Of a stretch of DNA of 64,000 bases, positions 26,402 to 35,305 are shown piece by piece; the first letter of the stretch is position 1; every line of letters starts with the position of its first letter. The notes under the pieces were generated by a model. That model did not search any database and had not been told where the DNA came from. It saw only the letters and a list, made by a program, of their open reading frames with translations. The position numbers and the translations under genes are program-made. The stretch is from Geoglobus acetivorans (lineage in GTDB: Archaea; Halobacteriota; Archaeoglobi; Archaeoglobales; Archaeoglobaceae), in NCBI RefSeq assembly GCF_000789255.1, contig NZ_CP009552.1, positions 248,001-312,000 on the forward strand. The letters run 5' to 3'.

Positions 26402-26623
26402 CCCCGTATGATTCCTGTATGTATTATATAGTATAAAAATTTAACTGCTTATTATCTATTTTGAATTATTTTAATTTTTGATCCTTTATTTTGCTTAAGA
26501 GCTGCTGAAATCGCTTAAAAGCTGAATACCTCTCTGGAAGTTATCATGATGACATTCTGAACAGCATGAAAACTCTGAGCTTCAGCAAAATAGTGTTGCA
26601 GGGAACTGAACCGGAGGAGAAAG

Positions 26624-26673
26624 TGCCCGGAGCCGGATTTGAACCGGCGACTATGCGGTCTTCAGCCGCACGC
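26624..26673 (+). repeat. attL, 50-bp copy of the tRNA-Phe 3' part
   Basis: Identical over 50 bases to 35232-35281. It begins at the discriminator base of tRNA-Phe and ends just past the anticodon stem, where the left copy continues CAATTTAC and the right copy TCTCCCAAG. It is not a functional tRNA because the 5' part is missing. Confidence 0.93.
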
Positions 26674-27636
26674 CAATTTACAAGCTCTATTAGCGAAATA
26701 GAGTCGAATAATGGATTAATTAGGTATCCTGAGGAAGCAAAAGGAAGCAAATTGCACCAAAAATATAATGGCTACAATGAAAGAATAAAGTTTGAAGATA
26801 TTGATTACGAGGATTTTGAGCTTTTCTGGACGGCAGAGAGGAAAATGAAAACCAGCAAGGGGAGAGTTAAGAGATTATACAATGTTCTCAGGAAGGTTCT
26901 ATCTGGAAAGGTGATCAATGAGGAATCTCTGAGGGAAGGATTCCACAAAACAACAAACAAGAAGGATTACGTGAATGCTGTAAGGGTTCTGCTGGAGTAT
27001 CTGAAGGTTAGGAAGCTAATGCCAAGGGAAGTCGTTCAGGAGATCCTTGAACAACCATTCTTAACACCAATAAGATCAAAGAGGAGAGGAATCTATCTGA
27101 AGGATGAGGAGATCAGGCAGGCTTATGAGTGGTTAAAAGAGAAGTGGAAGGATAAAGATACCGAACTATTGTTCAAACTGCTTGTGTTCTCAGGGATAAG
27201 GCTTGATCATGCTCTGGATCTGCTCTATAACTTTGATCCAAGGAAGCTTGAGTTTAAGGGGAGAGTTGCAAGGTATCCATTAACCAATATTAGCAATGAG
27301 ATCAAATCTGGAGAGTATGCATTCATGCCGGCAGAGTTTGCAAGGAAGCTGAAGAAAATCAAAAAGAAGCTCAATTACCAAACGTGGGAGAACAGGATCA
27401 ACGTTAAGAGATGGAGGGGAGATGAGAAATACAAAAAGAGCAGAGTTGATGCGAATGCCATCAGGAAATGGTTTGGGAACTTCTGCTTAAGCCATGATGT
27501 TTCTGAATCTGCAACGGAATACTTCATGGGGCATGCAATAAAGGGAATGGGAGGAAAGGCTTACTTTGATCTCAGGGATAAGCTGAGCTGGAGGGAATAT
27601 GAGAAGATTGTTGATAAATTCCCAATTCCACCCTAA
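26624..27636 (+). CDS. Integrase, C-terminal piece of split SSV-type tyrosine recombinase
   Basis: Carries the catalytic domain of an archaeal tyrosine recombinase (Phage_integr_3-like). The reading frame enters through attL (PGAGFEPATMRSSAAR) and continues QFTSSISEIESNNG. Active-site candidates are the Arg of FSGIRLDH, the basic RKWFGNF box and the Tyr of KAYFD (codon 27562-27564). The ORF is open upstream to 26566 only by chance, in chromosomal DNA. The native start is in the other piece at 35003; joined through att the protein has 413 residues. In the integrated state this piece has no natural start, so integrase is presumably off until excision. Confidence 0.87.
26684..26696 (+). repeat. 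13-mer GCTCTATTAGCGA next to attL
   Basis: The same 13 bases recur exactly at 27675-27687 and 29675-29687 inside the long repeats. Here it lies 11 bases inside attL and is followed by AATAGA, forming a short inverted repeat TCTATT/AATAGA. It may be an arm-type integrase site or an element regulator site. Confidence 0.5.
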
Positions 27637-33092: not shown

Positions 33093-33350
33093 TCACCTTT
33101 CAAGCTTCAAAACCAGAATAACTCTCTCTTCTCTATCAATCTGGTAAATCAGCCTGAAATCCCCTAAACGAACTCTGTACCTGTCCTGATGCCCTTTGAG
33201 TTTCTTTATATCGAATTTCCTGAAAGGAACAGGATTATCTTTTAAGGCATCCAGAAATTCAGAAAATTTAACTCTGTGGGATTCTGGTAACTCCTTAACC
33301 GATTTTGCAACTTTCGGATGAACTATAATCTCGTAACTCGTAAACCAAGC
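33093..33350 (-). pseudogene. RelE-type toxin gene lacking a start codon
   Basis: The frame reads TSYEIIVHPKVAKSVKELPE, then FRKFDIKKLKGHQDRYRVRLGDFRLIYQI-type RelE/ParE core and ends in VILVLKLERR-like sequence before TGA. Between the preceding in-frame TGA (33351-33353) and the conserved core there is no ATG, GTG or TTG. The expected start region overlaps the 3' end of the HsdM-antitoxin chimera, where the bases that would supply the antitoxin stop and toxin start seem to be missing. It is probably not translated efficiently. Confidence 0.72.
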
Positions 33351-34108
33351 TCAGCTTTTAGTTTATCCCATGGAACCCCGTTCTTTTTCGTCTCCTCAGC
33401 AAGCCTGTCAAGTTCTCTTGCCTCTTCCTCACCATACTTCTGCTTAACATAATCATATGCCCTGATAAGCATCCTCGCATAGCCAGCAGCAGGATCATAA
33501 ACGCTGTCCATTGGCTTTGGATCAACAATCCTGACAATCAGATCAACAACCTCAGAGGGTGTGAAAACTTCACCTTCCTTAGCCTTTTGCGGAGCGAAAT
33601 AACCAATCAACCATTCGTAGGCATCACCGAGGATGCTATCACTCGCTCTTCCAAGATTTAATCCGCTGAAAAGCTCAAAAAGCTGAACAAGAATATCAAA
33701 ATTATCTCTGTGCCTCGTAAACTCAAGAAAATCGAGCCTGTCAACCACTCCCTGCAATTCAGGATTTTTCTCAGCAAGAAGTTTCAACGCCTCGGAAAGC
33801 CTTACAGGCAGCCCATTAATGTTCTTTCTCAACTCTTCCCATGTGTATCTCTCAGGATACTCAAACCTGTGGAAGGATCTATCCTTTGCAAGGTTTTCAG
33901 CCTCTTCTTTGCTCAACCCTTTCTCAAGCAGTGTTTTCAGAGCTTCGTTGTATTCTCTTTTCCATTCATCACTGAGCCGTTTCAGAAAGAGGAGAACGAG
34001 AATGTACTTGTAATCAACCCTCGTTCTTATCAGATCCGCAGCCTGCTTGCACGCTCTTATCAGCTCATCTCTTGTGGTCTCAATCTCGATGTAATCGGCA
34101 AGAGTCAT
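33323..34108 (-). CDS. Truncated HsdM methyltransferase fused to a RelB-like tail
   Basis: Residues 1-230 are the helical N-terminal part of a type I DNA adenine methyltransferase (RADLIRT-like start, FFAPQK/FTPSEVVDLIV, SVYDPAAGYARMLIRAY). The AdoMet motif DPAxGSGG has become DPAAGYARM (205-213) and everything after YGEEEAREL is gone, including the catalytic NPPY. From about 232 the chain reads LDRLAEETKKNGVPWDKLKA, a typical RelB antitoxin C-terminus, and the RelE remnant follows. ATG 34108 is favoured by a TATA-like box about 28 bases upstream. Not an active methyltransferase. Confidence 0.72.
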   Translation of the reverse strand: MTLADYIEIETTRDELIRACKQAADLIRTRVDYKYILVLLFLKRLSDEWKREYNEALKTLLEKGLSKEEAENLAKDRSFHRFEYPERYTWEELRKNINGLPVRLSEALKLLAEKNPELQGVVDRLDFLEFTRHRDNFDILVQLFELFSGLNLGRASDSILGDAYEWLIGYFAPQKAKEGEVFTPSEVVDLIVRIVDPKPMDSVYDPAAGYARMLIRAYDYVKQKYGEEEARELDRLAEETKKNGVPWDKLKAELGLRVTRL

Positions 34109-34155
34109 TACAACAAATGAGTTCATCCTGTATATTTTATTTTTCTGGAAAGTGT

Positions 34156-34400
34156 TTGATTGCTGCTGATCCCATGTTGATCTCAATCAACGTTGAATCA
34201 ACAGTTGATTGATTGCTGATTTATGCTGATCAGCATGTTGATTGATTGTTGATTGAGCGTTGATTGCTGTTGATTTGTCCGTTGATGCTGCTGATCTGAA
34301 TAAATCAACTCATGTTGATCCTGCTGATTTGAGAATCAACATGGTGTTGATATTGCTGATTGATTGTTGATCAACAGTTGATTTTGTGGTTGATTTTCTG
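34156..34400. repeat. Iteron-like array of TTGAT/CTGAT units
   Basis: About 245 bases hold roughly twenty copies of TTGAT (both strands) plus about seven CTGAT. Units are often GTTGATT or GCTGATT at irregular 6-20 base spacing. Perfect palindromes ATGCTGATCAGCAT (34223-34236), GTTGATCAAC (34366-34375) and TCAACGTTGA (34187-34196) are embedded. It lies between the ribbon-helix-helix gene and the HsdM chimera. It may be a replication origin, a partition site or an operator array of the element. Confidence 0.7.
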
Positions 34401-34418
34401 TTGAATTTCTGCTGATGA

Positions 34419-34634
34419 TCACTCCTCATTTTTAGTCAATACCAAACTCGAAATTATGTGTTCATTTTCTTGTGTGTGCGCATTCGCTACTTGTGAGAGG
34501 TAGAGCTTTATTGCCTTGGATAATTCCTCACCTAGATACTTCCAGTGATAGCTGTATTTGGTTAAAACGTAATTCTTGAAAGCCATCCATTCATCTTCAT
34601 TCACGTGAACGCTGATTTTTACTGGTTTATCCAT
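34419..34634 (-). CDS. Ribbon-helix-helix-like small protein
   Basis: A 71-residue protein starting KPVKISVHVNEDEWMAFKNY, a basic strand followed by helices (LGEELSKAIKLYLSQVA), as in CopG/Arc-type DNA-binding proteins. The start at ATG 34634 is supported by GGAGAGGTGATCTG directly before it. It sits between the iteron-like array and a set of TTCTTCC repeats, so it could bind either as a copy-number, partition or transcription regulator. The exact family is not certain. Confidence 0.6.
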   Translation of the reverse strand: MDKPVKISVHVNEDEWMAFKNYVLTKYSYHWKYLGEELSKAIKLYLSQVANAHTQENEHIISSLVLTKNEE

Positions 34635-34680
34635 CAGATCACCTCTCCAGAAATCGCATAGAACCGTGAAAAATGCTCAT

Positions 34681-34816
34681 TTCTTCCGATATGCATTACT
34701 ACTATGCATTTTTTGCACATTTCTTCCTGTCTTCCTTTATTTCTTCCTGTCTTCCAATGTGCATAAAATGAATGAATGTTGGTATGAAATTCATGTATCT
34801 TTCTTCCAATGTGCAT
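34681..34816. repeat. TTCTTCC-ATGTGCAT repeats upstream of the RHH gene
   Basis: Three copies of TTCTTCC(A/G)AT(G/A)TGCAT-like sequence occur at 34681-34696, 34750-34764 and 34801-34816. TTCTTCCTGTCTTCC is repeated at 34721-34735 and 34741-34755. A minus-strand 96-codon ORF (34634-34924) runs through them, with MHIGRK-type peptides repeating; it is more likely repeat translation than a gene. Confidence 0.55.
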
Positions 34817-34966
34817 GAAAAGAAGCTCTCTCCTGCCTTCATTTGCGATCACCTGATACTCTCTCGTGGAGTGTGCACACACATGAATTTGTGCATGCAA
34901 AAATTTCGTACATTGTGGTTGCAATCTTTCTTGTGTGCAATCTGAATAAATTTAGTTTTTGTTACA

Positions 34967-35002: not shown

Positions 35003-35281
35003 ATGACGTCCATGGACGTTCGTGAACGTCCAGATAGAATAAACTCTGAGAAAAATTCAGAATCTCAGAAAAAAGGCAGGAGAAAGCTCAGAATGACTTT
35101 GTGGTTTTCAAGGGAGAACTACGAATACCTGAAAGAAAACTACGATGGCAGGATTTCTGAGATAATGGATGCTTTTGCAACCTTCCTGAGAACTGGAAAC
35201 GTTGTAGAGGTTTCAGTTTTAAGAATTGGAATGCCCGGAGCCGGATTTGAACCGGCGACTATGCGGTCTTCAGCCGCACGC
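35003..35281 (+). CDS. Integrase, N-terminal piece of split SSV-type tyrosine recombinase
   Basis: First 93 codons of the integrase, ending in attR. Residues 28-75 (RRKLRMTLWFSRENYEYL, then GRISEIMDAFATFL) look like a small DNA-binding helix or ribbon-helix-helix region. The frame then enters the att core as GMPGAGFEPATMRSSAAR, exactly matching the frame that leaves attL at 26624. In the integrated state it runs on into chromosomal DNA to a stop at 35350. In the excised circle it would join the piece ending at 27636 to give 413 residues. Confidence 0.85.
35232..35281 (+). repeat. attR, 50 bp within tRNA-Phe
   Basis: Identical to 26624-26673. It covers the discriminator, acceptor 3' strand, T arm, variable region and anticodon arm of the intact tRNA-Phe, which is reconstituted at this end. 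Confidence 0.93.
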
Positions 35282-35305
35282 TCTCCCAAGCTGAGCTACC
35301 CGGGC
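35232..35305 (-). tRNA. tRNA-Phe (anticodon GAA)
   Basis: On the minus strand the acceptor GCCCGGG pairs with TCCGGGC (one G-T pair), the anticodon stem TGCGG/CCGCA holds CTGAAGA with anticodon GAA, and the T arm is GCCGG TTCAAAT CCGGC. It is the integration target; the 3' 50 bases are duplicated at 26624. A TATA-like TTAAAAATA lies upstream near 35330-35340. Confidence 0.95.

Follow-up and report, generated by a model that had tools for sequence, protein, structure and literature searches.

To our knowledge, little is known about how small plasmids and integrative elements are kept and copied in hyperthermophilic archaea. The StbA/stbDR system of R388 reportedly works without a motor. In that plasmid, a DNA-binding protein and direct repeats give stability (PMC3098194), and the ParR protein of R1 requires at least two 11-bp repeats (PMC9426499). 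Among archaeal elements, SSV1 has a lysogeny repressor, F55, whose DNA targets are tandem repeats (PMC5569661), and SSV-type integrases carry the recombination site within their own gene (PMC8371274). The proviruses ArcVen-P3 and AvPV1 of Archaeoglobus are integrated at tRNAs in Archaeoglobales, and ArcVen-P3 encodes ribbon-helix-helix (RHH) proteins (PMC4158269, PMC10919331). The origins proposed for the G. ahangari genome lie beside Orc1/Cdc6 genes, at loci other than the one described below, and the available part of that report names no such array (PMC4600277). A literature search confined mostly to papers outside subscription recognised no description of the array; because most subscription papers fell outside its range, this absence is weak evidence of novelty.

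The array in question is real, non-random, borne by an element, and recurrent. It belongs to a 64-kb window of Geoglobus acetivorans (the window being the whole stretch of DNA analysed, 64,000 nucleotides), and the features around it are collected in Table 1. About 25 short motifs, roughly one helical turn apart, are strung over ∼260 bp. The best 245-bp stretch holds 28 YTGAT/ATCAR motifs, and outside the array the window nowhere exceeds 7; 40 order-1 simulations of 64 kb reached a maximum of 9 per 245 bp. When the array itself was dinucleotide-shuffled 1000 times, 8.1 ± 2.3 motifs resulted (maximum 16), compared with the 29 present at 34146−34420. An earlier note on this DNA had reported some twenty TTGAT units over both strands and three perfect palindromes. 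The units are indeed there (16 TTGAT and 6 CTGAT on the + strand of 34156−34400, together with 5 ATCAA and 1 ATCAG), and all three palindromes are exact. The density that it assigned to 34156−34400 is borne out, whereas the actual extent reaches ∼34416. The helical phase is a feature absent from that note: the motif starts on the + strand recur with a period of 10.7 bp, i.e., one helical turn, and an equally strong period arose in 2 of 2000 random placements and in none of 1000 dinucleotide shuffles of the array.

Table 1. Features of the integrated element and of the array, in window coordinates
Feature	Position	Strand	Basis or remark
SSV-type integrase, C-terminal part, att inside gene	26566..27636	+	PF16795 8.9e-29; phrog_5127 integrase 1e-24
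att copy; 50-bp direct repeat matching the 3' part of tRNA-Phe	26624..26673		repeat comparison
Truncated cargo gene hsdM of type I RM system, reduced to its N-terminal half	33323..34108	-	PF12161, PF02384
TATA-like sequence of hsdM	34131..34144	-	placed by eye
Phased YTGAT/ATCAR array	34156..34416		23 motifs +, 6 motifs -; ∼10.7-bp period on + strand
Perfect palindrome TCAACGTTGA	34187..34196		exact match
Perfect palindrome ATGCTGATCAGCAT	34223..34236		exact match
Perfect palindrome TGTTGATCAACA	34365..34376		exact match
71-aa RHH-like protein, candidate array binder	34419..34634	-	shortened relative of 205-225-aa RHH + winged-helix-like proteins
Conserved region upstream of RHH gene, other repeats (TTTCTTCCAATGTGCAT-type)	34635..34930		possible RHH promoter/operator
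SSV-type integrase, N-terminal part	35003..35231	+	joins 26624-27636 in frame
att copy within tRNA-Phe (35232-35305 -)	35232..35281		repeat comparison

The array had been described as neither coding nor CRISPR, and both statements stand. The sole long ORF that overlaps its edge (33323−34186, − strand) begins with TTG, and HsdM has its conserved start, MTLADY, at the ATG of position 34108, short of the array; the array is therefore non-coding. A CRISPR array consists of identical repeats of ∼24−37 nt with unique spacers. The units found here are irregular and 5−6 nt long, so that this candidate was discarded. Simple low-complexity DNA dispersed over the chromosome, an explanation that the earlier note had itself raised, was rejected as well: the genome (1,860,815 bp, single contig) contains one copy of the array, and no other such cluster.

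As had been suggested, the array is on a mobile element. This integrated element is 8,608 bp long and is bounded by the two 50-bp att repeats, which lie inside both integrase ORFs, the gene being split by integration. When its two parts are joined (35003−35231 + 26624−27636), they read through 413 aa with no internal stop, and the catalytic domain is that of archaeal phage integrases, as found in SSV-type elements. The element encodes a truncated HsdM, which shares 91% identity with the corresponding first half of a complete HsdM of 508 aa. Its other products include an EVE protein and proteins of the PIN, AF2212-like, HEPN, and nucleotidyltransferase kinds. The array sits between hsdM and the gene of the 71-aa RHH-like protein, both on the − strand. 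Within the element, a HEPN/nucleotidyltransferase pair (30066−30669), a PIN/AF2212-like pair (31290−31950), and a further PIN gene (28075−28524) are likely toxin-antitoxin modules.

Does the array occur in other genomes? A pattern search through 57 genomes of the order, requiring at least three matches within ∼300 bp, found related dense arrays in seven of them (G000, G002, G004 with two loci, G007, G013, G014, and G026), and a control pattern read backward gave at most one match per strand per genome. L021 and L023 were found to be free of any array; where the pattern matched singly and in scattered fashion, the places in G001, G005, G006, G011, and G038 were examined. A phase of 10.6−10.8 bp is present at 6 of the 11 loci tested (window, L012, L013, L017, L018, and L019), and the remaining five (L014, L015, L016, L051, and L022) are unphased. 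The phased arrays form two homologous groups, mutually related but with one inverted against the other when the flanking genes are taken as reference, and for this reason the six cannot be counted as independent events. All of them have a tRNA nearby and type I RM or Hma-like genes next to them, adjoining hsdM at five loci and an HmaA-like helicase gene at L017; the motif phase is constant, and the cargo, the orientation, and the neighbors vary. In L017 and L018, the array is followed by a common block with 118 of 155 columns identical; this C-rich non-coding block (L017 8570−8707, L018 6263−6415) is conserved better than the array itself.

Other loci depart from this picture. The array of L022, next to an HmaC-like gene, is weaker, and at L051 the array is placed between the 3' ends of hsdR and of an RHH gene, where there is no promoter. 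L057, with the same gene order, uses a different motif, TCCGA/TCGGA, present 12 times in 300 bp versus at most 3 elsewhere in the locus; its array (8501−8800) has two RHH-winged-helix genes on one side and a type III RM operon on the other, and its phase is not significant (129/1000). At L058 (8405−11447), two tandem hsdM-type genes come right after an RHH-winged-helix gene, leaving no room for an array. L014, L015, L016, L052, and L054 are virus-like elements with capsid-like and packaging-ATPase-like genes and an RHH-winged-helix gene; the motifs are partly or largely coding in L014−L016, where they are unphased, and also in L054. Outside the order, the clustered matches among those listed are exact 12−13-bp tandem repeats, found in two f5-family genomes; a third member of that family, G158, has 16 pattern matches outside the matches listed. 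A looser pattern gave mostly single hits in viral contigs, among the matches listed, and was set aside; similarity to the array in phage and plasmid records amounts to short chance matches.

Another question is which protein could occupy the array. The RHH gene pointed out in the earlier note does abut it, but the assignment to that fold fared less well: the 71-aa protein has no Pfam family at E 0.001 and none in NCBIfam or PHROGs at 0.01, so that neither an RHH family in the first two nor any PHROG supports it, and no fold match is convincing. Its monomer model (pLDDT 68) has helices at 13−27 and 31−55 and no strand; Foldseek returned a best E of 4.9, with ParD2 at rank 10 (E 7.4), and a search of the PDB by sequence gave nothing meaningful. 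The longer relatives carry an additional winged-helix-like part, for which a fold search with one homologue found weak CodY/MarR/RosR-like matches (best E 0.027); one relative is located in a tailed-virus-like contig without an array. Phage and plasmid records contain no match to the RHH-winged-helix protein, and 99 candidate stretches from a search of genome contigs with the RHH-like protein include no relative.

A second set of repeats precedes the RHH genes (window 34680−34930, L012 8280−8500, L014 5360−5510, and L018 6760−6910). These repeats vary by locus, being of CTTCCAATGTGCAT-type or GGTTACCAAG inverted repeats, and on their placement they are a candidate operator of the RHH gene. Since they differ from the array, the RHH-like protein may recognize them instead. 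Short repeats (ACTCCA, TGTACA) are also found directly upstream of RHH-type genes at L221 (97−215) and L055 (850−970).

The RHH-like gene accompanies the array usually, not always. A profile built from 7 sequences gave 27 rows in 17 of the 57 genomes; two weak rows (G010:C13:20553 and G013:C12) were left out of the locus counts. Strong matches (E < 1e-20) occur at 11 loci, and nine of these have at least 11 motifs per 245 bp, four of the nine being virus-like (L014, L015, L016, and L054) with motifs partly or largely coding; L052 and L053 fall below that density. No array was present at the 10 fetched loci with weak rows only (maximum 8 motifs per 245 bp), nor in 6 control stretches of 20 kb (maximum 7). 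Exceptions exist on both sides. G014 has a phased array (L013), yet no relative of the 71-aa protein was found in its genome, the neighbor of the array (L013:8510−8968) being RHH-like by eye only and without a match to the profile. At L017 the array is dense and phased, and the RHH gene is absent from the locus, with two copies on other contigs of the genome; at L019 the gene contains a stop. Conversely, L052, L058, and L221 have an RHH-winged-helix gene and no array. With the exception of G014, the arrays in genomes without a profile match are weak (13 motifs per 245 bp at L022 and 11 at L020).

What is the array for? From its phase, its position in the element, and its recurrence, we tentatively infer, at somewhat less than even confidence, that the array acts in cis as a nucleoprotein-assembly site for an SSV-type integrative element of Archaeoglobales, with upkeep as its likeliest use. 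The array of another motif in the same gene order at L057 also counts in favor of this reading. A small DNA-binding protein would load side by side on the ∼25 TTGAT/CTGAT motifs, displayed on one helix face, and would then wrap or bundle the DNA. The adjacent RHH-like protein is the likeliest binder, and the excised element would probably be maintained in this way, through centromere-like partition or iteron-like copy control. Neither a partition NTPase nor, as already stated in the earlier note, a Rep protein was recognized among the window proteins scanned.

The same coated DNA could have a different purpose, i.e., to silence or activate the adjacent defense operon in the manner of a controller protein, preventing restriction before methylation. 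This possibility, which we regard as a serious though less likely rival, draws on the position of the array upstream of the first defense gene at all six phased loci (hsdM at the window, L012, L013, L018, and L019; the HmaA-like helicase gene at L017), on the ∼10 bp that separate, by eye, the start of the window array from a TATA-like box, and on the precedent of F55, an RHH protein that represses promoters via tandem repeats (PMC5569661). Upkeep is favored over control of the cargo because of four observations. Close hsdM homologues (87% identical in G020, 86−91% in G001) stand by tRNA-Val with no array and no RHH-profile match, and the DNA upstream of them never exceeds 4 motifs per 245 bp. 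The orientation flips, the array of L018 and L019 being inverted relative to hsdM and RHH, and this counts for maintenance because a centromere tolerates inversion. The L051 array lies at 3' ends, and the arrays remain dense where the RM cargo has decayed: the window has a truncated hsdM and L012 a split one. In addition, 260 bp would be long for an operator.

It is unlikely that the array serves some other factor of the element or the host, such as a replication initiator, a recombination accessory, or a chromatin protein, and that the RHH gene just happens to lie next to it. The arrays of G014 and L017 that lack a 71-aa relative at hand would fit such a factor, as would the different repeats upstream of the RHH genes, and a 10.7-bp period is also compatible with DNA wrapping. 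Yet a specific pentamer with strand bias exceeds a mere wrapping signal, and a host-chromatin signal is ranked low because of this specificity; one dense array in the entire genome would be odd for a host factor, and the weakness of L022 and L020, G014 excepted, points back to the RHH-like protein. Less probable still is a relic or selfish repeat that no longer has a function, having expanded by slippage and traveled with the element. Units were gained and lost between the window and L012, the window cargo is broken, and the excess of motif over spacer identity is small and not significant in the two close pairs (0.92/0.84 for window versus L012, 21/229 mask shifts; 1.00/0.97 for L018 versus L019, 38/278). 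Against this, the units are not identical tandem copies, and the phase is kept in diverged arrays, in which motifs agree better than spacers: 0.73/0.49 for window versus L013 (2/213 mask shifts) and 0.79/0.52 for L017 versus L018 (0/240; motif agreement up to 0.87), values biased upward because aligners match repeats to repeats.

A broader idea, improbable as a whole, starts from an archaeal centromere or copy-control array that needs no motor and keeps its phase through ∼25 helical turns. It might serve as the shared backbone module in a family of integrative elements that carry defense genes, with RM, Hma-like, and type III cargo swapped beside it; as these elements would have their RHH regulator in common with viruses infecting the same hosts, they may act as satellites of those viruses. 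Irrespective of that idea, the loci show a family of elements in which a single conserved junction is passed by various antiviral systems, and the recurrent phased site with its candidate 71-aa partner makes binding directly testable.

Set beside the systems mentioned at the outset, the locus resembles several and matches none exactly. ArcVen-P3 and AvPV1 are viral, and the accessible text of their reports mentions no such array (PMC4158269, PMC10919331). Iteron plasmid origins likewise concentrate dense repeats in a mobile element, whereas no Rep domain was seen among the window proteins scanned. StbA/stbDR has another protein and other repeats, and R388 is a conjugative bacterial plasmid. 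F55 is a small RHH protein that binds tandem repeats and is encoded by an archaeal integrating element of the SSV type, but its sites have two tandem repeats over promoters, with consensus ATAGATAGAGT, instead of ∼25 phased units. Compared with ParR/parC of R1, the array is downstream of the RHH gene and not at its promoter, has ∼25 units on both strands, and belongs to an archaeal integrative element; an actin-like ParM motor was not recognized with Pfam among the window proteins scanned, a search that covered part of the ORFs of the element. What the two have in common is the feature that typifies type II (ParMRC) systems: short direct repeats about one helical turn apart, at 10.7 bp in the array, combined in R1 with an RHH adaptor.
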